Source: Thuidium tamariscinum
Lineage: Eukaryota; Streptophyta; Bryopsida; Hypnales; Thuidiaceae
Assembly: GCA_947034885.2 (NCBI GenBank)
Contig: OX344752.2
Coordinates: 17,856,001 to 17,920,000, forward strand
Length of the DNA stretch: 64,000 nt
Reading direction: 5' to 3'
This document shows positions 7,871 through 49,799 of this stretch, piece after piece (the first letter of the stretch is position 1; each line of letters opens with the position of its first letter). Below the pieces are notes generated by a model that worked only from the letters and a program-made list of their open reading frames with translations, searched no databases and had not been told where the DNA came from. The position numbers and the translations under genes were made by a program.

Positions 7871-8305
7871 CCAAGCATCAGTCACAGAAAACGTTTTCAG
7901 CGTCCACAAACAAACAATGAAGATGTGCACATTTTCACTCGTCTCTCACCAACAGAAAGTTGCAAGTTTTATTAAGGTCTCATTTCCATTTCAGAACGCG
8001 CGGTCTGAACTCCAACATTGAAGTGTCCGTAACTACGCGAAAGTCTCCCGTCCGTGTGTGCAGTCCTTCCATATTCGATCGGAAGGTATTCGACAGACCT
8101 TCAGGTTTCGTCATGATCAACAACATAACAAAACGAAGTCAGCTAGACTGCAAGTAGAGATGCTCAACAAAGAAGACAACTGAGGATGAAAGCAATTCGG
8201 AAATCAAGCCGTGGAAGCGAAGCATTCACCTCAACGCATGGCGGGTGTCACCCAAACTGTGGGGGACAGGGCCTGCCCAACAGCCTTGACGTTGATTTCG
8301 TGCTG

Positions 8306-8722
8306 CTAGCCGCCAAGTAGAATTTGTCGTAGCTCCTGCAGCTCAGCGACAGCGAGCTCACCAAGGAGGCTGGTCCGCAGCCTCAACGGCACTTCAACTC
8401 CAAGTGCCCATGATCTGCTTAGTAAATCCAAGTTCTTGTCAAACTCGTGCAGAATCAAACTCTCCGTCGATAGAGAGAGCTCCACAGCGGTGACTCGCAC
8501 GTCGAATTCGGCCAACCGGAGGGCTGCAAATTCAGGTGTCACCTGCACAGCCTTCCAGGTCGTACGACAAACGGCTGCGAGACAGGAAAACAAACGCAGC
8601 ATTGCGCCCCGATTCGCCAACTCCTCGAAACGCACCCATGGGTTGTCAGACTTGCAACAAAGTCCGCGGACAACTAGGGCCACAATGGCGTCACTCAGAA
8701 CCACTTCCCTCATTGAATCCAT
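8306..8722 (-). CDS. Small hypothetical protein, weakly F-box-like
   Basis: An open frame of 138 codons begins with ATG at 8722 (MDSMREVVLSDAIVALVV) and ends in TAG at 8306. The N-terminal third, with the spacing Leu-Ser-Asp-Ala-Ile-Val then LFSCLAAVCRTTWKAV, looks like the helical pattern of an F-box (substrate-receptor module of SCF ubiquitin ligases), followed by PEFAALRLAEFDV. The remainder is Leu-rich with no repeats I can name. The frame can be extended upstream only from a non-ATG codon. Composition is higher in GC than the flanks. A plus-strand TATA box lies about 90 bases upstream and points away from it, so the two could share a bidirectional promoter. It could also be a fragment or a chance frame. 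Confidence 0.4.
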   Translation of the reverse strand: MDSMREVVLSDAIVALVVRGLCCKSDNPWVRFEELANRGAMLRLFSCLAAVCRTTWKAVQVTPEFAALRLAEFDVRVTAVELSLSTESLILHEFDKNLDLLSRSWALGVEVPLRLRTSLLGELAVAELQELRQILLGG

Positions 8723-8813
8723 GTTGTGCAACTGACAGACGAAAAGAAGAAATGCTCGCACTCATAAAGACCATGCAGAGAAACAGAAGTGCAAACATGG
8801 TGGGTGAGGAGCA

Positions 8814-8821
8814 TATAAATA
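8814..8821 (+). promoter_or_regulatory. TATA box (TATAAATA)
   Basis: CATATAAATACCCGCG is a good RNA polymerase II TATA context. It lies about 300 bases before the first coding-like stretch of the plus-strand multi-exon gene, and palindromes at 8925 and 8973 follow within 160 bases. Assignment to that gene is inference from position. Confidence 0.35.
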
Positions 8822-9029
8822 CCCGCGAAATCGGTAACCTCCCTGCGAGACAAGGCACAGAAACCTAGCCGCCTGCCGAGACTACATCTTGGTGAGACTA
8901 CCGCCTGGCGAGACACCGCTGCACTTCAGACCGCGCGGTCTAAAGTGGATCCTTCGAACCACACCGATGCACTTCAGACCGCGTGGTCTGAACTGTATCA
9001 TTGATTCATGGACTCCCGAGAAATCCTAG

Positions 9030-11776
9030 AGCAAAGTGCATCGATAGAGTAAACCATGAACCCACGAGTGTGCCAATTCCTGAATACCTGCTTCTCAAGG
9101 ATTCCCGCGACTGGAATTGCATTGCTCACTTCAGATACTTGAAGAGGCACGCGATCTATGGCTGTACGAAATGCAGCAATGCTATAAGTCGAAGTTGATC
9201 AATATCTTGGAGAGCGGCAGTTCAATGCTGATACCAATTCCTTGTATTCAATCACGAAATGACAACCATAAGTCATTTCCGAATCAAATTGGAAAGACGT
9301 GCACCGACTTCACTATTGAAACTTCAGATGATTCCATTTGATCACTCTGTCGCGTCTCCAGGGAATCTTTTACTAGTAGACTTATGAATGGGACTCGTGC
9401 TTACGAGGAAATGATTGCTCACCCCGATTCCTGATTTCATACTTTTGAAATCGTTGGTTTCTTCAGGAAATTAATGAAGAAACAAGCACCAGGACGACGA
9501 CACAATCACCCACTGGAGACACCGGCACCATCGTCACCCACCGACGTTAAAATATTCAGTTCGCGAAACAGTGAACTACTAACAAGAAGTTCTATCAGAG
9601 TAACAGTCGGACACGTAAAAAAGGGAAGAAGTGCGCTTCCCCACAAGTAGCTCTATTTCCGAGACAGATTCGTGTGACTGGCGGCTTTGTTTTTGGCAAC
9701 ACTTGTGCGACACTGGTGACATAGGATGTGGCATCATCTCTATCATTATTTCGTCTCCCGCATACTTCGTTGAGTGACTGGTAGGGAAAAGGAGAGGTTG
9801 CGGCGCAGGATTTGCAGGAAGCCTCAGTGTCCATCGAGAGGGCGAACAGTACCTAGAGTGAGGCAAGACGGAAGCAAACTTCGAGCTCCAAGGAGCGCTC
9901 CTCGTTCTCCCGAACATCACATTTGATCGCTGGCGACCGTTGCGGCTCATTTGACAGAAGACGCCGCGCCACGATTCGCGAAGGAGGTGCGTCGTCACGA
10001 ATCCTTGCTTCATTGCATTTCTTGTTGAGGTTCTAGAAGTCTGTCGAGTACATCTTCAGCAGGGTGCGCTTCGAGTAATGTGAAATGCTGTTCCATTGCC
10101 GTCATGATCGACGTAGGTTTGCCAAGTTGCGGATGACCGACGTTGCATCTCCAAATTAGAGAAATACAAGCTTCTCGCGAGTCGTAGGGAAAATCACAGT
10201 GCCTTTGCGCTTCAGTGTAGCTTCTCGTAATTGTGCAGGATCATACTCCTGGCAGTCTTCAAAGTAGAATACTTCCGACATTGCTGGTCGTACTGATGTT
10301 CGTGTCCATGGCAGGAACGGGCAACTGCAGTTGAACCACGACCTAATGGCGGAAACACATTTCAAGACGTGCTCGGACGCTGTGAGGACTGTGTTGGACA
10401 GCGAACAATTCGGGTTGCGCATTCGCGTCTTGCCTTCCATTTCCGTAGAGTTATTCGTCCCGCTTATTAGAAGAGACGTTTTAGGAATGATCGCATCATC
10501 ACCATTGTCATACTAACCAGGAATGTGCGCATTTCGAAGACAACTGAACGCTGCTCTTTTCATTCAGGGACGGCGATTTCTGGGAAGGCTACAAGTTATA
10601 TTGCTTCGCTCATTACTCAAAATGCGTCGCATCCAAGGAAGAATTTCAAGTTTGTAAGATGGGTGAGTCTCACATCGTCAATCGCCTTCCAAACCTGATT
10701 CTCCTCGCACTTTTGCTGTCCTCGAGGAGATTGTCTTTATCCTGATATTGTCGGTGTTGCAAGTCGAGTTATGTGCGCGCTTCAGGACAAAGATGCTGTG
10801 GAATGGGGTGCTCATTTTGATGAGGCCATTCGCCAGACGTGGGCGGAGATGGAGGATTATGTGCAGGTTCGCCACAACAATGACTGCAAAAACCTCAGGT
10901 GCTTCTTCGAAGGTGCAACCCAAGTGCGTGTGCATGAAATGTAGGAAAGTCAATCCTCTCTCTTGTCAACGTTCTCGTAGGGTCCAGGCTTCTAACGTAG
11001 AGGGTATGCCTGTAGGGCGCTCATGGAGAAATTCGACGACGTCGAGAAGCTGTCGTCGACCACAAATGGATGCTTGCTTCTACGACTCATTGAGGTGTGC
11101 CAACAATCACTAGCCGCAAACTATGTCGTCGAATTTAGACGAATGCAGTACACGATTGTCGTTGAAAACGCAGCTTGGGTGCACTGTAATTGACCATGTC
11201 TCAGAAATAGTACAGATCTCTGATGTCAACTTCCGAGGTCTAGAAATAACGAATGCTATGTACTTTAGAACGCGCAGCCTAAACTGAAAATGGCCGTGGT
11301 CTTCAAGAACCGTACGAAATCATTATATTCAGAAAACGTCCCTCGAACTTCGGAAATTGTCATGGGATTATCACTGTAGAAACCACTAGATTCTTCAGAA
11401 GTCAGAACCCCCAAATGCTGCTCATTCAGAATATTTTAACTAGATGGCCGTGTTCTCTTCTAGGACGACGACCAAGCCACGGAATTTCCGAAAGTAGAGC
11501 CCGTGCACTTGGCAGTGGACGGTGATATATTTGAAGAGATCCGTGGGAGACTCAACGACACGAAATTGGACTTGGCAAATTTGAAGCGAAAGTCACGCCT
11601 GTCCAAACGTCGGAAATTGTGAACTGCCCACGACGTGGGGATGCAAAGTATTTCGGGTACAAGGACTCCACTGATCGGCCCGGTGGCAAAGGAACTGTAG
11701 CTCAGATATTGGAGAACAGATTACCTAGTAAGTCCCTGTCCGACAGGGGACATGTAACGGACTGTAGACCGGAGTA
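9030..11776 (+). pseudogene. Fragmentary multi-exon gene of unknown function
   Basis: A chain of coding-like stretches in one direction suggests a gene with many small exons. Recognisable pieces are about 9128-9211 (EEARDLWLYEMQQCYKSK), 9862-10080 (ELQGALLVLPNITFDRWR, later VLEVCRVHLQQGALRV), 10331-10460 (LMAETHFKTCSDAVRTVL), 10568-10669 (DFWEGYKLYCFAHYSKC, acceptor TTCATTCAG|GG, donor ATGG|GTGAGT), about 10724-10910 (CLYPDIVGVASRVMCAL then EWGAHFDEAIRQTWAEME), about 11003-11190 (ALMEKFDDVEKLSS then LLLRLIEVCQQSLA) and 11465-11776 (FPKVEPVHLAVDGDIFEE then DAKYFGYKDSTDRPGGKG). The last piece switches frame near 11570-11590, and a TGA interrupts the 9862 piece, so it may be decayed, or some splice sites are missed. 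I do not recognise the family. TATAAATA at 8814 may be its promoter. Palindromes lie in its upstream region (8925, 8973) and between its exons (11264). Confidence 0.45.
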
Positions 11777-12120
11777 CCGATTTCTTTTTTGAATATGTAA
11801 TCTTTCTTTTTTGCAACGAGACATGTGATGACGAAACATCGCAGAGCCATTTGTTCATCAGCTGTCTGAAGTTGTGCAAGTCGACGTCGAGACTACATTT
11901 CTGGGCTTGTCGATACAGTTCAGACCGCGCGTTCTAAACTGCGGACAACACCGAACATGCACTCGTCCTTCTCAGGTCGGCGCTCCACATTCTCAAGAGC
12001 ACAGCTCCGGGATTGTCCGCCGCTTGCTCTATTTGCGTCGTCTGACTTGTACAAAGGAACTCGAGCAATGGCGAAATTTGGATGCTCCGACGCGCTATTT
12101 CCTGAGAGTGCCCTACAAGG

Positions 12121-12504
12121 TTCAGACCGAGCGCCCTGAACTGATGAAGTGACACCGTGTAAGAGTGCCAGCTGAACTCAGCGAACCTACATGCAGTCGT
12201 CGATGCTGAATTCTTGTTCGCTGTGACCTACTTCGTATCGAAAAAGGTAGGCTCCGCGAAAACCGAATTTTCGAGGGGACTCTCTCCCGGGAGAGCGCAC
12301 ACGGTTCAGACCGCGCGCCCTGAACTGATGAAGTGACCGTGTAAGAGTGCCACATGCACTCAACGAACCTACATGCAGTCCTCGATGCTGAATTCTCGTT
12401 CGCTGTGACCTACTTCGTATCCGAAAAGGCACGCTCCGCGGAAACTGAATTTCCGAGTAGACTCTCCCGGGAAAGCGCAGACGGTTCAGACCGCGCGTCC
12501 TAAA
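12121..12504. repeat. Tandem duplication (~182 bp) bounded by palindromes
   Basis: Two consecutive units (12121-12304 and 12305-12484) share CTGAACTGATGAAGTGA, GTAAGAGTGCCA, CGAACCTACATGCAGTC and GTTCGCTGTGACCTACTTCG. Each unit starts with a copy of the 20-base palindrome, and a third palindrome (12485) closes the array. They look about 85-90 percent alike by eye. No protein is evident. Confidence 0.8.
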
Positions 12505-13440
12505 CTGTGGAATCAACGAAATGGCATGTTCACTAAGACATGGGGATTTTACCAATTCGGCCGAACTCATCAACTGTGGATTGAACACGAAGGATCGCTC
12601 TTCGTTGATCGTCTTCACTTCCAGAATCCCTAGTGGGCCTACATCTCATCCAAGCATGCGAGGTACGCTCCGACAAGACATCTACGGAGCACGGTCGATC
12701 CAGGGTTTCTAAAAAACTCACTCCATCGTCACCCTCGTCCACCAATCCGAAATGAACCTACCGAAACGTTCAACCAAATGCTTTTTTCACATTATACAAC
12801 TGACCTCGCAATGCAACTGTACAGTGTTCCCTCAACCGTGACGTGCTCATGCAATGGAACCCAAAGCGAGGAGGCATACAAATCAAACATACTTCTCTCC
12901 CATTCCAACACCTCACCGTACCACTCGGAATACAACAACCGACCTTTCAGCCCACAAACTTCAGAAACCGGAATACAAGCCGCAGGGAATTTCCTAGGCT
13001 TACGGTAGGTCGACGCTGAGAACACCACTTCATCAAAAATGAAAATCACTAACCGACGTCTAAGCCAAGCGCACAACATGCAAACACTCGCTGAAGCAAT
13101 GCAGTACGACAGCAAGCAATCAGAAAGGTACCGCTGCAGCCGGCGACGAAGAAATACTCCACCGCAAACGCAGCCATTGCAGATCGCAACTCTCTTCCTC
13201 CCGTGCACTTGCTGTCTCCGCTGACACGTTCTTCTCAACGAACCTAGCAAAGAAAACCGGCCTCCGGACCAAGGACGACACTAAAACTGAGAATTCAGAG
13301 AAGGGCTGAGAAATGGCGTGCGCTCTAGGGTTCCGACGAAGAAAAGTCATCGACGGCTTCAACGGTAACCTAGGAAAACGAACGGGGTCCCACCGCCAAC
13401 TCTCATCCAACTTGACATCATTCACCCTTAAACGAAAACA
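12505..13440. other. Intermediate-GC region with unassigned open frames
   Basis: A minus-strand open frame of about 150 codons at 12792-13250 and shorter ones overlap on both strands. None shows a recognisable motif or a convincing start context. Composition is gene-like rather than AT-rich, so a small gene or exon cannot be excluded. Confidence 0.25.
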
Positions 13441-15636
13441 TCCATTGCCATGTAGTCAAACATCATGTCCTAGGTGAATTGAGCCTTTTAGACGGCCTTC
13501 AAATTTTGATCTTATATTCTCATGACTTCAAACAATGGAGAATGTGAAACCATGGAGATATTTCAATTGATTTTGGAAACAATTGTAATTGCCATCATTT
13601 GGGTTGCAAATTATAGAAAATTATAAGTAAAAATACATTAAATGATCTAAATTTTGAGACATTTTGTCGCGAGCTACAAGTAACAATGAACATTAGTCTT
13701 ACTACAAAATTTTCAATAGATTATTCCTTTTTTAAAACCCCAAACAACCACAACAAAGACTTGAAGTAATATAAGCCTATCAAACCACATTTCGTAGTTC
13801 ATTCAATAGACTGAGGTATAAGAATTTGATGTTTCTTACTAATAGGAAATCGTACTTCCTATTCACTGAAATGTTTTCAAAATTGTGGTTGAAAACTACA
13901 AATTATTGTCATTTTTCAAAGTTAGGGATAGAAAATAATTATATCAACTACATTATTCTTAAATATATCATTAATGAAGATATAAATGGACAAGTTCATT
14001 TTGGCATTCAAGTAGAACATTCCATTGAAAAGAAAAAAAAATGAATCGAAAACACAACAACTTGTCCTTTTTGGATTTTAGCACATAGAGCTTGCAGTTG
14101 CAATAACTTCTTCAATTTCTCAACTTCTCCACAATTTCAAGTTGAAATTGAAACAGAAATTGTCGAGCTTCATTTTCCTTGTCAAAGTCAAATTCCAAAA
14201 GCGGGTATATTTGAAATTGAAATCAAGGATGACCTACTGAGGCACATCCACTTTTTGGATGCGTATGCACTTAAGGATTAACCAACAGTCTCAAAACACT
14301 CTTTAGGTGGCTACAACATCATAGGACACAAGTAAATGAAGACCACATGACTTCAAGAGTCGGCACACCTAGTAAGAGCACCAAATATTAAGCAAAGATG
14401 TCTAAAGAACCTTTTCCTATAATTATTGTACAATACGTTGAAAGATAGCAAAAGGTTATACATGAAAGAACAACAACTTATATGGCTAGAGCCACTACAA
14501 ATTTATGTTTCATAGGATTAATGTCTTCCTCAAATGGACATGCCAAAATCATGCAATTGTACCTACTTACTGAATTTGACGTTCCTGATGGAAAGGCCTG
14601 AAAATTAGATCTGCACTAGTGCTCAAACTATATGCACATTGTGCTCGATGCCTACACATAATTCAGTGTCAATGATCATGCGTTACTTAATACCACAATT
14701 GCAATCATAGAAATATGTAAGTCGATCTTCAGGAGTACAAGGACAATTACTCGGGTGCAACACTCTCTGCATATTTGGATACCTACCCTGAGGCAAGGGG
14801 GCAATTACTTGGAGTTCATTTACTTCCCATGAAGAAATAAAAAGGACCCAACAATTATAAATTTTCTAAAAATTGCCTACATTATGGCACTCTACATTAC
14901 TTATGCCGAAAAGATGGTACTAATTTCTTTCTCTTCTTTGGAAAGGGAACAAAGATTGATAAGCTAAGCAAAAGCCACTTTTTGGCAACAGAATTGTACA
15001 CACTCGGATATGTGAATCTTTTCACAGTAGTATTTCTGACTTTGTAAAAAGTTACTTTTCTTAATATCTTCTTCACACCGTACGTTTCAAGTGAAGGTAA
15101 CTAGTAAGGTTCTTAGTTTCTTCATTTCGTTCATATTTTCATTGGATACTTTGTTTGTCTGGATTCACTGCTCACTAGGTTCTAATTTCTACTCCCTATT
15201 TCTCTATAATTTCTAATCTTCATTTCTACTCCCTATTGCAGTATTGCAGAAAAAAATTGTAAATAGAAAGAAATAGAGAATGATTCAAAATAATACATTT
15301 TGAAGAATGTATTTATCATAACGAAATTTTCAAAAACTCTATTCCAATGGGTCTATTGTTTTAATAAACTATCTGAATCAAAGAACAAACATTTCTTGAA
15401 GGTACATTGAAAGCTTGACTCGAATAAAGAACTTCAAAGTACAAAATCGAGAACCACGCAAAAAAGAACTCATCACTTTCATTTCATTCATCAAAATAGA
15501 ATGATTATGAAAACATTTCCTTGTGTGGATAAATTCAAAGAAAAAACAGTAAATTAAAGTTTATCAAAAAATTTATTTCAATTAGTTTTCCCGGATTGCT
15601 TGGTTAAACACAATCTACATATCATACAAGAATTAT
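13441..15636. other. AT-rich intergenic region, nothing recognised
   Basis: This is long AT-rich sequence with only short chance open frames. No repeats or element ends with target duplications could be identified by eye. Confidence 0.4.
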
Positions 15637-15640
15637 TTAA

Positions 15641-16566
15641 CCCCTAAAGGACCAACATGCCTTTTTTGGCAACATAGCGATTTTGGGCAGGTACGTGTGG
15701 CTAGAGATTTCCATATTTTGGAACCAAAATTTAATAGAAGGTGTGGACGAGAAGTGTCTTGAAAGTCCAACAAATTCCGTGACTTTTGCCTACATGGTTG
15801 AAAAGTTATCACATAAAACGTTGTTTGTTTCTCAATTCGGGCAGTTTGGGCACATTAGAAAAAATCACTTTTTTTGGAAATAAATTTTTTTAATTTATTT
15901 TATAGATTTATATACATGTACAGCTTTGAATCATTCCATTTGAATTAATGAGCCAAAAGTTATGAAGGATTTTAGTTTGCGAGTAGTTATGGATTCTCTT
16001 CTCTAGAATAAACTTTGAAGTCCTCTGTTTTACTCAATTTTCAATATAATTTCTGAAAAAAAATATAAACATTGGGTGTAGATTGTTTATTACAACATTT
16101 GAACCATTGGGATGGGCATTTTTCAATTCAATAAATAAAGTTTTACCATTTCTGTATTTTGAATCATTATGTACTTCTTTCTTCTTACTATTTTGTTGTA
16201 CATGTTGTACAATTCCAAATGATATGAAAATTTTCAAGCATGTAGCCAACTTGAATCGGAGAATAAGTCTAAAGAGTTGCAACCATTTTGGACATTTCTT
16301 CATACAAATGTGGCCTTCTGAAGTGCAGCTGCCCAAATTTTCGCAGTGGAAAAACATTGATTTTTGTAACTTCAAACACTAATATCTTGCAATCTACATG
16401 GTGGAAATCTCTGAAATTTTTTCTACATCTTTCCAAACTAGTGCACTAAGAGATCCTACGGTTACATGTATCAAAATTTTTTTTTTTTTCTGAAATTGGG
16501 TAGCTGTCCTCGAAATGACAGTTTTGGAGCAGTTTTGGTGGAAACATTGTTGCGGTGCTTTAGGGG
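15641..16566. mobile_element. piggyBac-like non-autonomous element
   Basis: The left end CCCCTAAAGGACC follows TTAA (15637-15640). The right end GTGCTTTAGGGG is followed by TTCA (16567-16570), a one-base variant of TTAA. The ends match the element at 6009 and the truncated copy at 7530. The 926-bp AT-rich interior encodes no transposase. Sequence at 16780-17040 repeats interior motifs of the 6009 element (GGTACATTTTGC...TGTACC; AATATGAAACGA) and is probably another decayed member. Confidence 0.62.
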
Positions 16567-17045
16567 TTCAACATGTAGTCAAAGTTTTTGGAAACTGCTG
16601 GGCATTAGAAAAAAAGCTTTTTTTGATATAGCCTGAACATTTCAAAGGAGAAAACAAAATTCCATTCATAGTGAGCGACCTAAAATAATTTTAGGAGTTC
16701 AGTTTCTTCATTCTAGTTATCCCTTCTCTTTTGTTTCTAGAACGGCGAACTGTAAAGTAGGGGGCTGTAATTGCAACCCTGTCTCTGAAAGTGATCAGGT
16801 ACATTTTGCCTGTAACATGTACCAAAAGTGTACATTTCAAGAGGGGGTCGCTTTGAGAATCCATCGTGTTTTCAACTCCAAATATTTATAACTCATTCCA
16901 TGAAGGTCCAAATAATATGAAACGAATCGGATTAGATGCCAATTCCATTTTCCTCACTACGAAAATTTATTAAAAATGGTTTTCAGGCGTTCAACTTCCC
17001 CGAAATGCAAATCATGTGGTAAAGGGTCGCTTTTATAACCCCCTA

Positions 17046-17350
17046 CTTTAGATATAAATACGACCTCTTTCAACTTCATTCTTACAAATACATAATAAAT
17101 CAAGTAGATGATACTTCTAAATAATGAGTAATTCATTAAAAATGAGCTAAAAATTTAATAATGACTTAATAATGAACGAAACAACAAAATCAATTCAATC
17201 ATAATAAATTAAATAATAAATATTTCATTATTAATGAACTGAACAACTAATAATAAATTCATTCATAATGATTAAATAATTAATAATGAAATAATGAATT
17301 ATGAAATAATTTATTTATTAATATTGAAAAAAATAATTAATTACTAGTTC
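17046..17350. repeat. AT low-complexity tract
   Basis: This is almost pure A/T with iterated TTCATTAATAATGAA-like words, probably a decayed microsatellite. There is no coding potential. Confidence 0.6.
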
Positions 17351-20138: not shown

Positions 20139-20148
20139 ATCGTGGTAA

Positions 20149-35460: not shown

Positions 35461-35552
35461 AAATGTGCACTGCAGTAGTATTGCACGCCTGTCGCAACAA
35501 TAGTGCCCTATAACTGCGCAGCCATGGTAGATCGCAGCAGGTTGATTCACGG

Positions 35553-36802: not shown

Positions 36803-36828
36803 TTGTTCGACTTCTTGTGGACTGTCAG

Positions 36829-38730: not shown

Positions 38731-38749
38731 GTATGATCTTACCTTCCAG

Positions 38750-39118: not shown

Positions 39119-39151
39119 CATGGTCTCTGATGTGTCTCCGTCGTTTCGCAG

Positions 39152-40536
39152 GAGTTCAAGGCCAAATGCGAGGAGAGCTTCGAGTCGACCGGGACTTCGC
39201 AAACCCCCAACGGAGCGAAGACGACAATTAAGGACTTCGACAAATTGGGGGAGCGCAGGGTCATCATGGCCTCCGATGAGACTTGGGTCCTCTGGAAGGA
39301 GCTCTTCGAAAAGCACGAGTCGGACACCTTGTACAACATCGACCACGGCTGCATGTACAACGAGTTGGATACCGAGGCGGGCAATTCTAAGGCGACGAAG
39401 CTACCGCCCTTCAACAAGAACCAGATGCGGACCCTGTGCGGGTTGGACGACTTGGTTGTGGGGGAGGCTGCGAGCAAGATGATGCAAGTCCCTCCCAAGA
39501 TCTACATGAAGAGGCCGACGCTCTGGTGCTCGGCCCTGGCCATCGCCATGTGGACCACGCGAAAGAAGCACAAGACCAAGCTCGTCGTCGACATCTTGGC
39601 ACAGGTGGCTGGGCAGAACGTGCCCGCGGCGAAGGGAGTCATCAACGACTCCGGCGAACTCGATCCCGCCCGATGGAAGGAACTGAAGGCGGCCCTGTGC
39701 ATACATGGCTTTCACATGCAGTCATGGAGCGTGTGGGGGAGGAGTACCTGAAGCAGGAGTGCAAATCGGGAGTTAGCAAGGATAACAATCCTAGCTCGGC
39801 GCTCGTCGTGCTATACGAGCGCGTGGCAGCCAACGCGAGGCGATTCCACGTCGTGAGTAGGTGCGCGTCCGCCTCAGTCTGCGCGTGGCTCCGTCCGAAG
39901 TTGATGTTCCACCCGCAGCTGTCCAGGAAGCTCCCTGAGGGGTGGTTCAGCGTGAAGAAGGGTGCCGCGCTCCTCTAGTACTACGAGGTGGGAATCATGG
40001 ACTTGCGCCTATTTCCGAAGATCGACAAAACGGAGGTCACCTACGGCTACAACATCATCCTGGAGCAAGTGAAGAAGGTGTCCGAGGGTTACATGTCCAA
40101 ACACGTACACACTTGGATGATCATTTACAGCGCGGAGAGGGCTTCCGCGGTGGATCACATAGTGAAAGCATTCTTTCCTCATCATCGTCTCCGCCGCAGT
40201 GCCGAGTATAGATGTGCGAAGGGGGAGCCCACCTATGCCTTGAAGGACACCGTGACTGTGGAATACCTACAGCGATCCGACATTTCCTTCTACAACTCCC
40301 ATCTCGTGGATAGGAACGGAGTGGTTCCACCACTGTCGGCCGAGGAGGACGCAATCTTGGAGACGAAGGTCCCCATGTTCAGGCAGCGGGAGACGTGCCG
40401 TCACGATTTCCCGCAAGTCCAGTCGATGAAGGAGCTGCGATACGAGGTCTACTTGCGCTTCATCGACAAGTTCTGCAGGGACCAAGGGATCGTCATGCTC
40501 GTCTCCGCAGGAGCGAAGGCAGTCTCGGCCTGCGCG
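39152..40536 (+). CDS. Large gene, central exons (two, with a small frameshift)
   Basis: The acceptor CGTTTCGCAG|GAG at 39152 opens in phase 0 (EFKAKCEESFESTG ... NKNQMRTLCGLDDLVVGE ... RPTLWCSALAIAMWTTRK). Near 39712 the frame shifts by two bases: the CACATG there may be a duplicated CA, since ignoring it joins ALCIHGF to HAVMERVGEEYLKQEC. A GTGAGT donor at 39853 and acceptor CTCCTCTAG|TAC at 39979 (both phase 0) remove an apparent in-frame TAG. The last part reads YYEVGIMDLRLFPKIDK, EQVKKVSEGYMSKHVHTW, RYEVYLRFIDKFCRDQG and ends GCG|GTGAGT at 40536. No further domain is recognised. The frameshift could mean recent decay or a sequence error. Confidence 0.6.
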
Positions 40537-40622
40537 GTGAGTTTCGATCTCTACAGATTGGTGAATTCCTCTTCCGTTGATCGAAATGTGAACACGGACT
40601 GATTTGCACTTGTGGTTTCCAG

Positions 40623-41405
40623 ATGTTGTGCCGGAGCTCCGTGGCGTTCATCTCCAACACGGCGAACAGCCTGCATCGGCATTCGGTGCACAGCCGACGA
40701 GGAGCCGAGATGTGGCCGGACGTACTAGTCCACGGTCCACCCGCCCTCAGGTACAACTACGAGGGCATGGCTCCCAACCAGCTCCGCAGAGGAGAGAGCG
40801 TGCTTGTGACGGCCGAGGGATTGACGGTGGCGGTTCGGCCGGAGTCCGAGTCCGAGAGCGAGGAAGAGGACAATGATGAGGATGAGGAAGAGAGGGACGC
40901 TGCATTGGAGGGTGAGGACCCGATGGATGTGGGCGCGTCGAACCCCGCGGTGGACGACGACAGAGAGGAGTCGGGGAACTCGGATGAACGTTCCGACAAG
41001 GCCGAATCCGAAGATGACGAGCATTCGCCCGTGCACCTTGGCGAGCCCGAAGGACGGACGTCCAAATCCGTGGACGCCGACGACCTCTTCTCCGAGACGC
41101 ATCCACCGCCGTCACCGCCGAGAGGGCATAATCAGGCCGCGCGGTCTGATTTGCACATGGAGGACTCTCCTCCGTCTCCTGTGCTTTCGGTTCGGGGCGC
41201 GCGGTCTGATCCGGTGTCAGGGTCTCCGAGTGCAGGCGCATCCCCTCCGGTAGACGCGACCGCGAGGATCCTCTTCGCGACTCCGACGGCCGTCCTCTCG
41301 CCCCAGGTCCAGGGGATTCGGTCCGCGTGTCGTGCATCCGGGAGCGAGCCGGCCCTGTCGACTTCCGCGTCGCCTGTGGTTCAGACCGCGCGCCCTGAAC
41401 CGTAG
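40623..41405 (+). CDS. Large gene, acidic exon
   Basis: The acceptor TGGTTTCCAG|ATG at 40623 continues phase 0 (MLCRSSVAFISNTANSLH ... ALRYNYEGMAPNQLRRGE). An Asp/Glu-rich stretch (about 40845-41080) is followed by Ser/Pro-rich sequence. Three palindromes (41131, 41191, 41380) lie within this open frame and would code for NQAARSD, VRGARSD and VQTARPEP, so either the palindromes have been drafted into coding DNA or the exon ends before 41131. The TAG at 41403 is the upper limit; the true donor was not identified. Confidence 0.5.
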   Translation: MLCRSSVAFISNTANSLHRHSVHSRRGAEMWPDVLVHGPPALRYNYEGMAPNQLRRGESVLVTAEGLTVAVRPESESESEEEDNDEDEEERDAALEGEDPMDVGASNPAVDDDREESGNSDERSDKAESEDDEHSPVHLGEPEGRTSKSVDADDLFSETHPPPSPPRGHNQAARSDLHMEDSPPSPVLSVRGARSDPVSGSPSAGASPPVDATARILFATPTAVLSPQVQGIRSACRASGSEPALSTSASPVVQTARPEP

Positions 41406-41456
41406 TCTCACCTCCCACTCCGGGTGGCGGACGGGGTTCAGGCCGCGCGCTCTAAA
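41131..41456. repeat. Palindrome family, cluster D (4 copies)
   Basis: Copies start at 41131 (ATCAGGCCGCGCGGTCTGAT), 41191, 41380 and 41437. The first three lie in an open frame of the large gene and the last in the gap before the next exon. G for A at position 6 of the left arm is shared by several copies here (CAGGCC). Confidence 0.8.
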
Positions 41457-41518
41457 GCGGACTCCGCGGCGATGCCCCCCCTCGTCCTTCGTCGCGGAGC
41501 CCTCCCCTGGTCAGCTAG

Positions 41519-42952
41519 GTCGAACCTGACCCGACGGCTGGCTCGGAGACCGCTCGGGCCAGAATTAGAATCGAGGATATGCAGCTGGACCTCGACTTCA
41601 TGAAGAAGGCATTCTCCGAGAGCCAGCTGCTCGAGCTGGACAATGTGAGGGTCGGGCTGCTTGATTCTGCCTCGGAGGCGAACGATCTGCCATTCGAGAA
41701 GAGGGTCGACAGGTATTGCGGAATGGTGGCGGACATGAAGGCCAAGCGTCTCGGATCGTCGTCGGTGGAGAGACTCAAAGTGCACGTGATGGCGCAGGTG
41801 AGAGTCGACACTCTCGCCTCGGAACTGCCGACTCCGACCGCGGCAGAGCAGGCCTACATCGATCACCACCGGGAGATGAGCACGAAGTATCGCATGGACC
41901 AGGAGTCCAAGACCGTCATCGACCTCGATGACGCCGAACTGGAGGCGAAGATGAAGACGAGAGAGGAAGCCAGGAAGGCGGTTAATGCTGCGTCGCGAGG
42001 AGCGTCATTCTCGGGGGGTGCGGACGTGAACGCCGGCGAGAGCTCCAACTCGAAGCCGGACGTCGGAGCACGGCCGCAGCTCGCTACGAGCGGGGGGGTG
42101 CGCTCGTCCTCTAGGGCTTCCGAGGTCGACGAGAAGCCCGACGTGAAGCCCGAAGTGCGGGACGCCTTGATGGAGGCGTTCGAGAGGCAGATGGAAGCCG
42201 CTCGCAAGAAGTACGAGAAGAGCCAGCAGGCTAAATTCGACAAGGAGAGGGAGCACTGGGAGAAGGAGTGGGCGGAAAAGGAGAAGGAGAGGGAGAGGAG
42301 AGCGGAGGAGGAGAGGGCCAAGAACGCGGAGCGGGAGGCGAAGTGGGAGGCCCGTATGAAGGAGAAGGAGGAGCAGGATCGGAAGGATGCGGAGATGAAG
42401 GCGGCCCAGGACGCCAAGGCAACCGATCTGTTTGCCAGATTGGAGAAGCAAGCCGCGGAGGTGGAGTACATGAAGTCCGAACTGCACGCAAGGAACCCCG
42501 GGGTAGTGCCCGTGACAGTCACCGTGGCTGCCGCTCCGAGTCCCAACCGTGTGAGTGAGCTCCAGAACGTGTCCGGGGTGTCCACGACCAACTCCGAATC
42601 GGCAACGGCCTCCGCTGCCTCGGGGCTCCGGCAGATGGCGACGAGAATCCCGGCGACGCCTCCGGTGAGTACCGATCCTGATGTGGATGATCTGGCGCTC
42701 AGTCAGTTTCCTAATGTGCATGTCCCTGAACTCCTGACTCGTCCGCACCAAGAGGACGAGGTCCCCTTCATCCTTGATCATCGTTGGGGGAGTGTTGAGG
42801 AGTCCTTCCCTAACTTGACTGAGCAATAACCTCTCGTCGTGCAGGCTCCGCACGGTCAAGAGCAGCCGCAGGTGCTGCAGGAGGAGCAGGTCACGGTGGG
42901 ATCTCCGACGCGGCAGGATCAGACTCCCGTGGTGGGTAACCCCTCCACATAG
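41519..42952 (+). CDS. Large gene, coiled-coil exons
   Basis: The acceptor TCAGCTAG|GTC at 41519 opens VEPDPTAGSETARARI, in phase 0, into MQLDLDFMKKAFSESQLL. The central part (about 42150-42480) is a long charged alpha-helical coiled coil, rich in Glu/Lys/Arg (EREHWEKEWAEKEKERER). The donor CCTCCG|GTGAGT at 42664 and acceptor CGTCGTGCAG|GCT at 42845 are phase 0. The short next exon ends at TAG 42952 (VVGNPST), or splices out in phase 0 at CCCGTG|GTGGGT (42931) to the acceptor at 43374, joining the FCP1-like part. Coiled coils usually mediate assembly; no enzyme motif is present. Confidence 0.6.
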
Positions 42953-43373
42953 CTCCCTTTTTGTTAGTTAGCCCGGACGCTATATGAGGGCGTTACGCCG
43001 GGCCGGTCGAAGGTCGGCCCGGCGAGTCTTAGAGAGCCGCGGGAGCCATAGTCGTAGCGGCTCTTTCTTTTGTGCATAGGATTTCTAGGCATTCAGTCAC
43101 TGGCATCCATTTTGAGACATGTTAATTGGGCCCAAGCATGTGCGGACGTTGTGATTGATTTGTTGTGCACCTCGCATCTTGTAAATATGGTGCATTCTTG
43201 TAATATATGAGACGTGATTTTTTTGGTTTTGTACCGTGCGTGCTTTGGTGACGCGCATGGCTTTCGTGGTGTGTGTGCTCTGCATTATCGATGGCGTTGT
43301 CACTTCCCTTGCGTCGCGTCCTCACAGTTCTTTTTGGACAATGTAGTTACACTCGTATGCTTTTTCGGTCCAG
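42953..43373. other. Intergenic or intron, with dyads and TGTAA words
   Basis: This contains GCCGGGCCGG..CCGGCCCGGCGAGTC-type inverted words, then GAGCCGC...GCGGCTCTTTCTTTT (about 43035-43073), a GC-rich hairpin followed by T-rich sequence, and TTGTAAATATGG and TTGTAATATATGAG (about 43180-43210), reminiscent of algal/plant polyadenylation signals. It ends in the acceptor TTCGGTCCAG (43373). It therefore looks both like a transcript end and like an intron. Confidence 0.35.
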
Positions 43374-45205
43374 GGTCCAAATGCTCCTGTGATGGACACC
43401 AACCTCCCCGTGAAGCCCCCGCATCCACACCCGTTGCACTCCCCTGGCACGCTCGATCCGACGAGAATCCCAACCATCCACCTGACTAGCCCCGACGAAG
43501 CCCCACACTGCCAAGCCCCCGAAAAGCTCTCCTTGTCCGTGGACGTCGCTCCACCCTGCCCCCGTGACGTGGAAGTGGACAGCGCTTTGCGGACGCCCGT
43601 CGCTGCGGATGTCCTTCCGCCGCTTCCAGTGGAGGTCGACGCCGGGGGACCTTGGATGACTGCACCTCCGCACGCATTGGATGGCTCGCTCGCGACCCCG
43701 TTTGAGGAAGAAGTCGACGGGCCCTGGACGACGATCCCTCCCGCCACCTTGCAGGCGGTGCCTCCCGAAGTAGAAAGTAAAGAAACGGCACGGGTCTTCC
43801 CTGCAGCGGAACCGCAGCTCGCTCCATCGATTGGTGCACGCGAATCCCCTCCGACCCCTCCAATCCGCACGGCTCCGGCGGATGCGCCGACGAAGGTGAG
43901 CCACAATGCCTCTCCCCACTCCCACCCGCACTCTGTTGTCCTCCCATACTCCTCCCCGCGTAGTTTGTAAGTATTGATAGGATGCCCACATAGACGGGGG
44001 ATGTTTCAGGGCGCGCGTTCTAAACTGCATGCGTCCCCGGCTTGCGCCGCACGACGGGCGATGTGTTTAGAACGCGTGCTCTAGACTGCACGCCTTTTGC
44101 AATGTGTCGCGTCTTCGTGCCTTGGATGTGATGATGGACTGTCTGCGTCGTCCGCAATTGCGTCTTAGTTTTTTCTTCCGCCTCGCCCGTTTTAGAAATC
44201 CCTACTCAAGGAGAGGGGCATTCGGACGCGTAGGCACCACTGCCGGTACCCCCGGCGATCCCTTCCCCTCGCCTCTCGCGCATGAGTTATTTCGTCCTCT
44301 TAGAAGTGGAGGGGGTCTTGTGCCACGTCGACCACGTCGGTCCAGCTCCGCGTGCCCCCGTCGCCCCGGCCGCGCAGCCTTCCGAGGCGGATTTCGATCC
44401 CGCGCGCCGTCACGTCTTCGGGGAGTACGCCCTGTACTGTCGACCCGAGGTGCGCCACTTCCTCAGCGGATTGTCCAAGAGGTTCCGCGTGGGCATCTGG
44501 ACCCGGCTGCCGGGGGACGTCGCGAGGCCCATGGTGAAGTTCCTCTTCCAGGACAGGGACGTCAGTACGATGTCCATCCTCACCATGGAGGATTGCACCA
44601 CCTTGGTGGAGAGGCGCGTGTGGTGGACCTGCGAGTGCCCGCCGTACCCGGAGTTTCCCCTCCTCGGTTGCCCGGCGCACCCGGCGAACACGTTTGTCGA
44701 CAAGAAGGTCGAGAAGAACACCTGGCTGGCCTTTCCCGACCATCCCGGGGGGCTGCTACGGCTCAAGGTGTTGTACAAGGTCGTCTGGGGCGACCCCAGG
44801 TTCCGCGCGAGCGCTTTCAGGGCCAACGCGACCAACACCCTACTCATCGAGTCCAGCCCGGAGAGCACCATCCTTAACCCCATTCACAACGCCATATTCC
44901 CTCTGACCTTCATTGGCAGTGCGACGGACAGTTTCCTCAACTGCTCTCTGTACCCGTACTTGGCGGGCCTCCTGGAATCCGGACGAAGCGTGTCCCAATA
45001 CCTGTCGGAAACCCCCCCTTACTTCGGACGGCTCGACAGACCTTGGACCCAGACGGAACTGGGAATGAGAGTAGTCAAGTTAGCTCGGTCGAGGGACAGT
45101 GATCTCGTCTTGGACTATTTGGACTTCGTCGGAAGTTACACTGTGGACGGGAGCAGTCCTTTCTTTAAGAGGAGAGCGGTCACTCATCCCTTGAGGAAAA
45201 CGTGA
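43374..45205 (+). CDS. Proline-rich protein with catalytically dead FCP1/NIF-like HAD domain
   Basis: Exon 43374-43895 is Pro-rich (MDTNLPVKPPHPHPLHSP) and ends GACGAAG|GTGAG. Exon 44234-45205 (GCGTAG|GCA) is phase 0 and reaches MSYFVLLEVEGVLCHVDH at 44282. This and RRHVFGEYALYCRPEVRHFL, FRVGIWTRLPGDVARPMV match the FCP1-homology (NIF) fold of RNA polymerase II CTD phosphatases, in which the first strand is normally hydrophobic-DLDxTL. Here it reads LEVEGVL, so both catalytic aspartates are glutamates and the Thr is missing: a likely pseudophosphatase. Later parts (NTWLAFPDHPGGLLRLK, TDSFLNCSLYPYLAG) keep fold-like hydrophobic spacing. It could start at ATG 44282, or be the C-terminal half of the upstream gene. 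The stop overlaps a following ATG (TGATG) of a 60-codon frame that I do not trust. Confidence 0.65.
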
Positions 45206-46800
45206 TGCTTGTGCAGATCCGACGACGCATATACGTCGGGGGTGACCGGGGCGTGCCGGAGGGCGTTGCGATGGCCGCTCGCTCCAAGCGGCGCCAGACG
45301 CGAATGGCGGAAGGGGTGGGCTCCTCCGAAGGCTGCTCCGTCCCTCAGGACACCGGGGACGACGCGACGTCGGCTCCTCCTTGAAGCACGACCACTCGGC
45401 CACGGCACCACGGACGTGCACCGCTCCCGTTGGGCGCACGGTATGCGGGATTCGGCCCCACGGTAAAAAAATACCCAGGTACGCTTCTCGATGACATCGT
45501 CGTTGCGGTCAGGAGTCCTCCACTCAGGCGGTCTAGGACTCCATGCAAGCTCTGAAGAAATCCCCCGTCCATTGGAAGATTTCTTCGAGTTTGTTCTCTA
45601 TCTCTGCACCTCCTCATCCGGTCGTCCTTCCTTTTGGATCTTCTGCATGGGATGGTGGATGGCTGGATGGCTTCAGTCTCTCGTCTTCGAGTCCATTGGG
45701 ATGTTCTTTTATTGCACGTCGGAATATGTGGGTCGTCTGGGAAGGGGTACTGAGCGCCAGCTGATCGTTGACTCTCGCAGGTGCAGCGACTCGCGCGGGA
45801 TTTGTGGATGTCCTCCCGTGTAGGCCCGCGGGCGGCGTGCGGTTCAAGCCGCGCGTTCTGAACCAGGGTTGTCTTGTCGGACATATTTTTGGGCTTGGGT
45901 GTCGTGTAGGACGTCTGACGTTGCGTGTCACGGTGACAACTTGTTACGAAGGGCGTCGCACCTTGTCGCGAAAGTCCATTTTCAGCAGCTCAAAAAAATG
46001 AAAATCTTACTATAACTATGAATCTAAATATAAAATGTAATATGTAATCATGAAACTAAAACACTTAATTGAAACCGAACTTAAATATGTCAAAAATTTA
46101 AATTTCTAATGATTTATTTTTATTTTTTTATGATGTTGACACTATTGGACGTCGCGAGGGCTCTACTAGACGTCACGTGACGTCTGTTGGTCGCGTTGTC
46201 GCGCTGTCCGGGTAGAAAACCCTGTTCTGAACCGTGGGCTCCGTCGCGGAGGGAGTCGCCACTATCGCGCCGTGTCCTTGTCCACGGACGTCGCGAAGGA
46301 CGATGTCGGCAAAAACCTTGCTCGCGTCAAATTCAGCATAGGATGACTAGCCTCAACCCCTTGACGCTTCCACGGTCTCGGGCTGTCGTAATCATGACTC
46401 CACCGCAGACCGTGCATCAGCGAAGAAACTGGGATCCCCTCGTGGACTCTTTATATCCTTGTCTTGTTTAGCTAGTAGTTTTTCCCCCTTAGCGTTCAGT
46501 AGGACGTGCAACCTCGTCACCATTCCAACGTGGATGCACTTATGATGACAATATTGTGATTTGCATTGCATTTCGTTTGCATCACTAATTTGACATACAT
46601 TTTCATCTACATTTGACTGGGGACCCGTTGTTCTAACATTATCCGTCGCATGAAAAACGCAATGGAGTGCGACACCCATCCTGGCCGCTGCATGGTGCGT
46701 AGTTGTATGGCAGCTGCATCAGTCTGTTCCTTGCCCTCTCGTAGACCTCTTCGCCTGATCCGCGAACCGTACATTGATGGACGTTAGATCTTACTAGTGC
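45206..46800. other. Downstream region without a recognised gene
   Basis: Composition is GC-rich to 45960, then a short AT-rich tract (about 45990-46140), then moderate. Several overlapping open frames exist on both strands with no motif. TGACGTCNCGNGG-like words recur near 46130-46200. Confidence 0.3.
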
Positions 46801-46839
46801 ATTCCTTCGCCTCCTCGATTCCAGTCACGCGCTCGAGCG

Positions 46840-49250
46840 ACAATAACATGAAATGAGCATCGCACCCGAATAGTCTTCATCGTAGAGATCATATCCCAGA
46901 CACGTCTTACTTTGGTCGTTGCAGAGCACTCCGAGGAAGCCAATCCGTGATTCACATTTCTGGTCGCTGTTTGTCGGCTTGCGAACTTGAAGGTATCCGC
47001 ACGGACAGCCGGCGTCATGATGGCCTCCCGGTGGAATCCGGCAGCGACGATGGGAGAAGCTGGCGTCGGCACGTATCTCGCGGCTCTCACGGAGCACGGT
47101 GGGCAACCCAAAATACGTTCACCTCGCCCGTGTCCATCATCCTCCGCAACGAGGGACCTTGTGCAAGTCTTCCCGTCATGGCCCTCCATTTTGCAACGTG
47201 GGGCTGCCTTGTTCTATGGGTATGAAACTCGGAGTCTCGACTTCTTTGGCGGACCACTAGCCGGCCAGGCCCCGAGTGGCCGGGCAAGTTCAAGTGCGTC
47301 GTCCATGTCCGGTGCCGCACAATTACCTTCGACGGACGAGTGTCCTTCGGATGTGATTGTGCGGTGTCGGATGTGTACCGATGCACGTGAACTCGCTCGC
47401 CTCGTCGGGGATGGCCGAGGAGCGTCCCGCGCTTAGACTCCAGACGCCGAGCTTCAGACCCATTGAATGGGACAGCTCCACGTCTCCTACAACAAAGTGG
47501 GGGGCGGTGACGGAAGACTTGCATGGAATCCTGCCCGATCGCTGCATGCTGCACTCGATCAAGTTTGCGTCCGCGCGAACGTCGTCCTTGTTGCACGCAC
47601 AGCTCCACAAACGCCGATAGACGTACCCTATTATCGCTGCTGGCATCCACCGTCGGTGCGAAGAGGAAGACGCTTGAATGACGTCATGAGCCTCTCGGAC
47701 GTGAACAATGCTCCACTGCCGTTCAAGTTTGCAGCTCCTCCGCGCCCTAAGAACGTGGAGGCAAACGTCCACGGTCGTACGAAAATCATTGCCAAGGTGC
47801 CTAATGTTGCACCTGATAATGTGATAGCCATTGCATTCGCTTCCTCGGAGTGCTATGCGTCGACCACACAAAGACAGCTTGCTGCCAATCTGTGTCAACA
47901 AGGCGGATTCGCGGAGACAACTAGAACAAGGAAACTTCAACGGCAACTCCGCCTCTAGCGAGGGAGATGGTTGTCGATGCATTGGATCGACGTTGCTCTG
48001 GAAGCCAAGTTTGGATGGAGAGGTGCATTCCATGCCGTTGGCAACCACCTCCCTTGTCAGAGGTGGGGTTACCTTGAATATGGCGACTTTCGTATGGGGA
48101 GTCGCGAAGATCCAGTCGGTGGATCGAGTGGACATTCGGACGACGCGTGTTCCAGGTTCGTTTTCCTACGACGGCTTCTATTTATGTATGTACCGAATGT
48201 CGTATTTCTAATTTCTTGTCCGCCTTTGCTTAGGGTAATCGAGGAGAGATGCACTTCTAACGACCTCTCAATCTGCGCAGCCTCTACTTCGCTGGTCTTC
48301 AGGACTCTTCAGGCCGCGCGTTCTAATCCTCTGGTCCTCTGGACTCTTCAGGCCGCACGTTCTAATCCATGCATGTCCATCCCATGATGGTCGTAGCATG
48401 TGGCTCTGCAGTTCGGACCGCGCATTCTGAAACGCGGGCTTGGATTATGCGTCGACCACACGAAGACGGCTTGCTGTCGATTTGCATCGATCGGGCGGAT
48501 TCGTGGAGACTGAACAAGATCACTTCAGCGGCAACTCCGCCTTTAGCAATGGAGTTGGTAGGCAATGCATTAGACCTACGTTGCTCTGGAAGTCCCGTTT
48601 GGATGGAGAAGTGCAGTCCATGCCGTTGGCCACCATCTTCCTTGCCAGAGGTGGAGTTACCTTGAATATGGCGACATTCGGACGGGGAGACGCAAGGTTG
48701 CACTTGGTAGACCAGGCCGACATTCGGACGAGCTCTCCTCTTCCGGCATTCTCGCCCTGCACGAGATGATATCCCGATTCCCAAGCACGTCTTCCTGTGC
48801 TTGTTGTTCAAAACTCCCAGGAAGTGGGTCCAGAACGGGCGGCGATTGTGTTGGCAGCCCCCGCGTCCGCGCGCACGATACGGGGTTCGTCCTCTTGCCC
48901 TCCCGACACGGGGGAACATTAGCAAGGCCTGTGTTCTCTCTCTTCCACGTTCGCAACGAGAGCCGTCGTCATCTTCAGACTGCTGGTGCCTGGCATCGAC
49001 AACTGGGGACGCACTCGTCGGCACATAGCTTTCGGCATTCACGGAGTTGTGTCGGCGACGAAAAGGGCATATCATCCAGGGTGATGCGCGCGCAGACGTC
49101 GGCCTCGTGGCCCACACTTCTCTGTGGATGCCGGAAGATGTGTGCCCACGGCGGCGTCGCCCATTATCGCTGTCAGGCTCCACCATAGTGTGAAGATGAT
49201 GATGGCTAGCGCTGTGAGCGTCCTCGACATGGATGACCATGGCCAATTTG
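46840..49250. repeat. Diverged dispersed modules in both orientations
   Basis: A module around GAGATCATATCCCAGACACG (46890) recurs near 48765 (GAGATGATATCCCGATTCCC). A second module (CAGCGACGATGGGAGAAGCT, 47040; through CGGCTCTCACGGAG) recurs near 48985-49060 and, on the opposite strand, near 49115-49185. A third (TTGCTCTGGAAG, TGGATGGAGA, CCATGCCGTTGGC, GGTTACCTTGAATATGGCGA) occurs at 47838-48160 and 48440-48750. The open frames here are explained by this repeated, decayed sequence. Its origin, perhaps an old element, is unknown. Confidence 0.6.
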
Positions 49251-49799
49251 AGGAGCGGAGATGTTTCGAAACTCGCGACTGTCGCACATCATTCCCATTT
49301 TGCTCGCTTCCTGGGAGCGTTGCACAACAAGCACGGGAGGGCGTGATTGGTCCCCATGTGCATCGACAAAGGGGTCACGGGAGGACCGAGCAAGTTAGAG
49401 AACTTCAACGACACCTCGCGTGCGTGGGGAGCGCTCCCCGAACGACGAGCGCCGGGATCGTCGACGAGGGGCGAGCATTCCATTCAACATCTCCCTCGAC
49501 ATCGATTGAATTTCCTATCTGTGCTCTTTGAACCATCCATTCCTTCGTGCGTGCCTTTTTCGTCCTCTGCGAGACAAGATGCATTCCTTCATCGCCTTCA
49601 TGCTTTGCGGTCCTAGTCCGGGACTCCGTGCGTCCCTCCACCTTCGTGGTCGTTGTCTACCGAGCCGTTGGAAACCTTCTGAATGTGAGCTTCTCGTCCG
49701 TAGGTGCGTGGATTGCCGGTTAAGATGGAGGAGCGCCTTCTGATGTTGGTAGTAGCCTCGAAGAAGTTCAGGGCGCGCGTTCTGAACCGTCGGCTTCAA

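Follow-up and report, generated by a model that had tools for sequence, protein, structure and literature searches.

In Arabidopsis, VANC proteins are described as acting via clustered motifs in the non-coding parts of VANDAL transposons (PMC5735166, PMC10398659). The excerpted account of the 21.5-kb transposon Sola1-1_Ec32 of Ectocarpus gives it an accessory gene, ParB-like plus DNA methyltransferase, on the strand opposite the transposase, and cites similar ParB-like proteins from green and red algal transposons; it ventures the guess that these accessory proteins, known from brown, green and red algae, bind to the very element that encodes them and modify it, and that excerpt mentions no binding site for them (PMC12477816). 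The Sola superfamily is characterized by a 4-bp target site duplication (PMC10741241), and KorB, the ParB-family repressor of plasmid RK2, is described as controlling promoters from distant OB operators (PMC11790492). Here we report on 64,000 nucleotides of the moss Thuidium tamariscinum (assembly GCA_947034885.2, contig OX344752.2, positions 17,856,001 to 17,920,000, forward strand; hereafter the window, meaning this whole stretch), in which a family of 20-bp palindromes lies inside a giant DNA transposon with terminal inverted repeats (TIRs), clustered around a gene, G1, that encodes a domain with a predicted ParB/Srx-like fold. The palindromes are a real, conserved, regulatory-type site family of this giant transposon lineage, and judged from sequence they are very probably functional protein-binding sites.

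A palindrome family carried by TIR transposons

The consensus palindrome, TTCAGAMCGCGCGKTCTGAA, is 20 bp long, symmetric and CpG-rich. At up to 3 mismatches the window holds 29 sites against 0.01 expected, a number that none of 100 dinucleotide shuffles reached. Across the 363-Mb assembly (19 contigs) the exact sequence occurs at 128 places and matches with up to 2 mismatches number 1286, compared with 0 and 2, respectively, for the reversed control. On the shuffle and reversed-control counts, a chance origin is rejected. The family had been picked out in a sequence-only reading of the window, whose site coordinates were borne out when we rescanned it and whose proposed genome-wide count came out far above the control. 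Its figure of about 35 copies becomes 34 at up to 4 mismatches (7990 to 49786), the listed thirty-fifth, at 44066, having 5; its site-free stretches, 12.5-35.5 kb and 50-64 kb, are indeed empty at up to 4 mismatches, but two 6-mismatch matches lie inside the first. Allowing 5-6 mismatches adds six window matches in all (6044, 26930, 31692, 36713, 41317 and 44066). The exact pattern had 0 matches in viral_contigs and 0 in genome_contigs (prokaryotes), so nothing suggests that the site came from a virus or a prokaryote. A literature search on palindromes in moss elements found nothing relevant, which suggests, on literature searches alone, that the family is so far undescribed.

The palindromes of the window do not stand alone but belong to one copy of a TIR DNA transposon of about 47-57 kb. 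When the window was compared with stretches around other exact sites, the whole palindrome-bearing span proved to be one repeated element; its other copies, B to H, lie on contigs C2, C3, C4 and C5 and are mostly 95-99% identical to the window, a few 1-kb intervals being lower, down to 87%. Ends were located in copy C (left), copy D (right), copy E (both) and the window (right). They comprise a TIR related to ATGGTCAATTTCGTTAAAATGGC, followed by subterminal repeats of about 21 bp, and homology between the window and copies D and E ceases at the TIR, at 57082. Both flanks were read for one giant copy, E, which extends over 47 kb from about C2:18192856 to 18239961 and has AATC on each side, a 4-bp target duplication. 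A 269-bp element of the giant's TIR type is nested at 1060-1328, with ATAG duplicated around it; it is missing in copy C, which shows it to be a separate insertion and rules it out as the giant's left end.

The sequence of the giant is not uniformly similar between copies. Positions 13000-30900, AT-rich and palindrome-free, are about 97-99.8% identical, mostly above 99% from 17 kb on, whereas the GC-rich parts are nearer 96-98%; the contrast fits faster CpG decay or a younger passenger.

Small relatives of the giant carry the palindrome as well. We read 18 exact-site loci singly (19 exact sites, from 50 places listed among the 128), and every site examined lies in or beside a TIR element: 4 loci are giant copies and 14 are isolated. 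Within about 1.2 kb of each of the 14 isolated loci there is TIR-like sequence at up to 5 mismatches, and for 9 loci at up to 2. As background, 83.1 kb of window and flanking sequence, known element ends excluded, gave no match at up to 5 mismatches, nor did any of 280 Markov shuffles, and the genome-wide density at up to 2 mismatches (2908 matches in 363 Mb, control 0) predicts about 0.01 per 1.2 kb. In 7 of the 14, a site starts 41-42 bp from the start of the TIR, some of these sites having decayed to 2-5 mismatches. Several of these small relatives measure about 220-310 bp and have 4-bp duplications. The element at L004 has 40 near-complete copies (88-100%, scored among 2704 candidates), and L031, L038, L040, L042 and L043 are TIR elements with different bodies.

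The TIR-like sequence at all 14 isolated loci examined, and the fixed spacing in half of them, are what would be expected if the palindromes were subterminal binding sites of a transposase encoded by the giant's DUF7869 gene (described below), in the manner of the TnpA motifs of Spm/En, with the interior copies as by-products or decoys. We regard this as unlikely: the giant's own ends bear the 21-bp repeats and are free of palindromes at up to 4 mismatches for more than 7 kb from either end, and the strongest clustering and deepest conservation are found around G1, not around DUF7869 or the ends. The possibility, raised in advance, that the sites are ends of one larger known element therefore holds in part, in that they lie inside one element family and are subterminal in its small relatives, but they are not at the ends of the giant.

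Arrangement and conservation of the sites around G1

Twelve of the 34 sites lie at 35553-36802, upstream of G1, four in the G1 intron and four before the open reading frame (ORF) at 41519-42829; the remaining sites are around further ORFs or at 8-12.5 kb (Table 1). Three tandem arrays, with units of 182, 205-210 and 39 bp, hold palindromes. To judge by site spacings, the number of 205-210-bp units (two palindromes each, 35709-36163) seems to differ among giant copies B, C, D, F and G. None of the 34 sites falls within the 7627 bp of exons set by homology, Pfam or codon pattern (the exon borders used, 38733 and 39153, deviate by no more than 3 bp from the feature list, with no site affected). 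When the 26 clustered sites were rotated within 35.5-49.8 kb, a mean of 10 fell in exons, and zero was obtained in 6 of 2034 arrangements, the unrotated one included. Three sites at 41131-41399 fall in an open frame, 40581-41405, of unclear coding status.

On the sequences compared, the G1 intron is the decisive observation for conservation of the sites. In three G1 copies with 52-54% protein identity to the window (L045, L046 and L047), the same intron, with shared borders GAG/GTATGA...CAG/GA, carries 3, 3 and 1 palindromes, respectively. Masking the palindromes leaves the window and L045 introns with nothing in common (best E 0.41); without masking, it is the palindromes that give the significant matches, with E down to 1e-8. 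The L047 intron (L047 1-60) resembles that of L046 without the stretch between the first and third palindrome; two palindromes have apparently been lost, an outcome that recombination between repeats would produce. For the L045 gene, the start codon of which was not located, 701 bp of upstream sequence contain five sites at up to 5 mismatches, and the last is followed by ATTTG, as in the window. Moreover, 6 of 16 database relatives of G1 (P0121, P0123, P0125, P0127, P0129 and P0130) end in SDRAV-like residues soon after the exon end, a tail that corresponds to the palindrome translated in that frame; this was read from protein sequences alone, and P0123 and P0130 fit a looser variant only.

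These observations bear on a further candidate of the sequence-only reading, a minimal self-spreading palindrome, which would be mobile or self-copying in its own right and invade larger elements. Its many copies and its occurrence in different element bodies would suit this idea, but site positions are conserved between copies, the intron location is shared between lineages about 52% identical, palindromes multiply within the three kinds of tandem unit, and L047 points to loss by deletion between two palindromes. We consider such an entity highly improbable; the sites move with larger TIR elements and those in the intron were kept across strong divergence, although the flanks of the window sites were read by eye and no systematic search for target duplications or empty sites was made.

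At some sites (for example 36055, 36355, 36490 and 38750) most other giant copies are nearer the consensus than the window is, and at a few other sites they are worse. CpGs inside sites differ among copies less (22/760) than flanking CpGs (93/1988), in counts that take related copies separately. Constraint shows up when old lineages are compared rather than within the set of young copies.

The form of the sites argues for a protein as the agent that recognizes them. Among 91 distinct site sequences, symmetric pairs are within 0.09 of independence at all ten positions, and half-sites that vary so nearly independently fit recognition by a symmetric dimer better than folding into a hairpin. A hairpin formed in RNA (8-bp stem, GCGC loop) and acting in transcripts, for instance in splicing of the G1 intron, would account for sites that fill this intron, the first of which lies 19-21 nt downstream of the 5' splice site both in the window copy and in L045-L047. 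It is nonetheless a most improbable explanation, given that there is little compensatory pairing, that mixed forms such as C7/T14 are common and that sites are also found in small elements and upstream of genes. The suggestion of binding sites for a dimeric protein has thus gained support from the symmetric consensus with its near-independent halves, and also from intron and upstream conservation across diverged copies of one gene and the lack of sites in the exons examined.

G1 and DUF7869 as candidate binder and transposase

The AlphaFold2 model of the G1 domain (pLDDT 78.6) was compared with the PDB by Foldseek. The best 24 matches are ParB (from Caulobacter, Myxococcus and others), Noc, KorB, PadC, sulfiredoxin, SbnI, free serine kinase and one hypothetical protein, with the best match at E 2.4e-3 and a Foldseek probability of 1.00. 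SbnI, free serine kinase and the hypothetical protein are presumed to share the ParB/Srx fold, and the fold predicted for the G1 domain is ParB/Srx-like. No methyltransferase domain was recognized in G1 by Pfam, NCBIfam or PDB sequence search. Of 369 candidate matches to G1 in the genome, 142 were scored: 31 show 80% identity or more across no fewer than 241 of 270 residues (with 26 at 93% or above), five are 52-56% and one 46% identical, 11 are fragments of near copies and 94 are at 26-39%. The downstream coding region has 50 genome matches; in those near copies that were compared by eye, 2 kb separate it from the ParB-like domain. Of the 48 top rows in the G1 search, 17 fall on contig C11 (17.5 Mb, about 5% of the genome), which is perhaps a sex or heterochromatic chromosome.

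The DUF7869 protein, encoded near the left end of the giant, is the likely candidate for its transposase. Its ORF 2117-3466 has an omega of about 0.30 among copies, and the protein has invariant D/H/N residues. The predicted model is poor (pLDDT 62); a Foldseek search with it gave no match, so that a transposase fold is not shown, and a literature search for DUF7869 found no paper. In the genome, 94 DUF7869 matches were scored among 725 candidates, 30 of them at least 91% identical. A divergently oriented G1 match lies within 70 kb of 68 of these 94, compared with a mean of 3.3 and a maximum of 10 in 500 trials of random placement (contig sizes approximated from the largest listed positions); a non-divergent G1 match lies within the same distance of 12. 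DUF7869 and G1 are therefore a conserved divergent pair. In the near DUF7869 group (at least 73% identity) 27 of 37 are paired with G1 at a median distance of 33.5 kb, and in the far group (49-52%) 41 of 57 at 14.5 kb. The window giant is a larger variant of the pair.

From these patterns we infer protein binding, G1 as the binder and an effect of the binding on the element. The reading we favour, with moderate confidence, is that the palindromes are operator or loading sites of a dimeric transposon protein, for which ParB-like G1 is the prime candidate. That G1 itself is the protein that binds them seems to us somewhat the better bet on present sequence, since the sites hug its own gene and its predicted fold family includes palindrome-binding regulators. 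The G1 protein would bind sites upstream of and inside its own gene, as well as the dispersed sites in non-coding parts of the element; binding would control the expression or chromatin state of the element, assist its transposition, or both, and small non-autonomous relatives, with a site near their TIRs, would use the same protein. A bolder version, which we put forward tentatively and think rather doubtful, is that G1 loads at dozens of palindromes over about 40 kb and, through spreading or bridging, acts on the giant as a unit, which it marks, silences or protects and whose transposition it steers, with small relatives hitch-hiking via the operator near their ends.

Several observations weigh against these proposals. 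As regards the sites, symmetric pairs exceed expectation slightly, by 0.07-0.09, at positions 3, 7 and 9. The L045 and L046 introns agree no better inside sites (55/60) than outside (151/169). Non-CpG positions in sites differ among giant copies slightly more (95/2160) than flanks do (547/15339), so that young copies alone show no strong constraint. The palindrome tail is lacking in 10 of the 16 database relatives, and the ends of the giant are devoid of sites, as described above. As regards G1, its PDB matches are weak (none with E below 1e-3, TM-scores of 0.22-0.31 over the query), none of the Pfam and NCBIfam ParB models recognizes it, and no helix-turn-helix DNA-binding part was identified in the modelled stretch, 37924-38733. 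At the presumed equivalent, aligned by eye, of the ParB CTP motif GERRxR, G1 has NGQHTW, which makes clamp behaviour doubtful. Finally, in L049, a distant G1 relative (29%), an intron at the same place has no palindrome; this single case fits coevolution of protein and site, and also a lineage-specific accident.

The L049 intron counts as well against another explanation, that what binds the palindromes is a transcription or chromatin factor of the host, enlisted again and again by these transposons for their expression or insulation. The location of sites upstream of genes and in an intron, and the recurrence of the palindrome in TIR elements with otherwise different bodies, are compatible with a host factor. 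Yet each of the 18 exact-site loci read, which account for 19 exact sites out of 128, belongs to the TIR family or adjoins it, none being without it, and we judge a host factor to be quite unlikely.

Other features of the window include a 3.9-kb repeat at 30918-34844 and, inverted, at 57376-61302 (segments 82-98% complementary), with a 699-aa open frame in one of the two window copies; it is inserted at different places in some giant copies, which marks it as an unrelated nested element. The ORF at 44234-45205 is cargo with an NLI-interacting-factor-like phosphatase domain (E 3.1e-11), and a RING-finger ORF at 62032-62781 lies outside the giant, adjoining the inverted nested repeat. Among the protein relatives in general, across the proteins compared, the best ones with a species name are from mosses, Physcomitrium (P0041, 49%) and Ceratodon (P0136).

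Table 1 Palindrome sites and other features of the window. Mismatches are counted relative to the consensus TTCAGAMCGCGCGKTCTGAA.
Feature	Position	Strand	Remarks
Palindrome	7990..8009		0 mismatches; unchanged in copies B, C, D, E
Palindrome	8925..8944		1 mismatch
Palindrome	8973..8992		1 mismatch
Palindrome	11264..11283		4 mismatches
Palindrome	11919..11938		1 mismatch
Palindrome	12121..12140		3 mismatches; in 182-bp tandem unit
Palindrome	12305..12324		2 mismatches; in 182-bp tandem unit
Palindrome	12485..12504		2 mismatches; in 182-bp tandem unit
Palindrome, G1 upstream	35553..35572		3 mismatches
Palindrome, G1 upstream	35640..35659		0 mismatches
Palindrome, G1 upstream	35724..35743		1 mismatch; in 210-bp tandem unit
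Palindrome, G1 upstream	35845..35864		0 mismatches; in 210-bp tandem unit
Palindrome, G1 upstream	35934..35953		2 mismatches; in 210-bp tandem unit
Palindrome, G1 upstream	36055..36074		1 mismatch; in 210-bp tandem unit
Palindrome, G1 upstream	36144..36163		3 mismatches; end of 210-bp tandem array
Palindrome, G1 upstream	36266..36285		3 mismatches
Palindrome, G1 upstream	36355..36374		1 mismatch
Palindrome, G1 upstream	36403..36422		4 mismatches
Palindrome, G1 upstream	36490..36509		3 mismatches
Palindrome, G1 upstream	36783..36802		3 mismatches; ends 26 bp before likely G1 start codon; similar site in L048
Palindrome, G1 intron	38750..38769		2 mismatches
Palindrome, G1 intron	38858..38877		3 mismatches
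Palindrome, G1 intron	38955..38974		1 mismatch
Palindrome, G1 intron	39099..39118		4 mismatches
Palindrome, upstream of ORF 41519-42829	41131..41150		3 mismatches
Palindrome, upstream of ORF 41519-42829	41191..41210		4 mismatches
Palindrome, upstream of ORF 41519-42829	41380..41399		2 mismatches
Palindrome, upstream of ORF 41519-42829	41437..41456		3 mismatches
Palindrome, upstream of NIF-phosphatase-like ORF	44005..44024		3 mismatches
Palindrome	45843..45862		2 mismatches
Palindrome	48308..48327		3 mismatches; in 39-bp tandem unit
Palindrome	48347..48366		4 mismatches; in 39-bp tandem unit
Palindrome	48412..48431		2 mismatches
Palindrome	49767..49786		2 mismatches
Window copy of giant TIR transposon	348..57082		Right end 57082; left end missing from about 348; later insertions nested within
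Right TIR of giant	57052..57082	-	With ~21-bp subterminal repeats at 56914-57043
G1 first exon	36829..38730	+	Start and end inferred (homology, GT...AG); in-frame stop 37363-37365 in window copy
G1 ParB/Srx-like domain (predicted)	37924-38733	+	Span as modelled
G1 intron	38731..39151	+	GTATGA...CAG, borders inferred; four palindromes
G1 downstream coding region	39152..40602	+	ORFs 39131-39751 and 39979-40602; interrupted in window copy; conserved next to ParB-like domain in many copies
DUF7869 gene, main part	1593..3466	-	Pfam match in ORF 2117-3466 (PF25273, E=7.8e-43); tblastn
DUF7869 gene, upstream exon	4394..4783	-	tblastn homology with Physcomitrium protein P0041

Comparison with known transposon and plasmid systems

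VANDALs are Mutator-type transposons, and the VANC domain is DUF1985; in this anti-silencing system the VANC protein strips DNA methylation from copies that bear the motif. The moss element resembles the VANC system in having many short transposon-borne motifs that are non-coding, multiplied in tandem and would serve a protein of the same transposon, here putatively G1; VANC target repeats likewise vary in unit number, as the 205-210-bp unit seems to here. The motifs themselves differ, that of VANC21 being the 9-base YAGTATTAY and the one described here a 20-bp CpG-rich palindrome, and DUF1985 was not among the Pfam matches of the 30 ORFs scanned, which do not cover every exon.

With Spm/En the likeness lies in a repeated motif for an element-encoded accessory protein that is also found near the ends of non-autonomous relatives. 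TnpA motifs are subterminal and crowd the ends of the autonomous Spm/En element, whereas the ends of the giant are palindrome-free. With KorB and ParB-parS, G1 would share a ParB/Srx-type fold, as predicted, and operator sites on a mobile replicon; the OB sites of KorB are many and dispersed. KorB belongs to a bacterial plasmid and G1 to a eukaryotic transposon, and G1 is without the CTP-binding motif reported for ParB and KorB (GERRxR/GARRYR).

Sola1-1_Ec32 is likewise a giant DNA transposon with a ParB-like accessory gene opposite the transposase strand; its gene differs in having a DNA-methyltransferase part, which was not recognized in G1. Known Sola transposases are DDD enzymes. Two Sola traits recur in the moss elements. 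Four-base-pair duplications flank copy E (AATC) and the element at 1060-1328 (ATAG), and in small elements they agree at 4 of 4 bases in 5 of 7 cases and at 3 of 4 in the other 2; related TIRs bound copy E on both sides and copy D and the window copy on the right.

By analogy, the palindromes are perhaps the binding sites, so far unnamed, of ParB-like accessory proteins of the algal-transposon type. This family offers a specific candidate site and a specific gene, and its diverged protein-site pairs form a natural series within a single genome; the self-binding guess made for the algal proteins is thereby opened to a simple binding assay. If the proposal is true, a newly recognized kind of transposon self-regulation becomes testable, and these moss transposons would represent another solution to the problem that VANC proteins solve, namely self-recognition of a transposon by a short motif in its own non-coding DNA.

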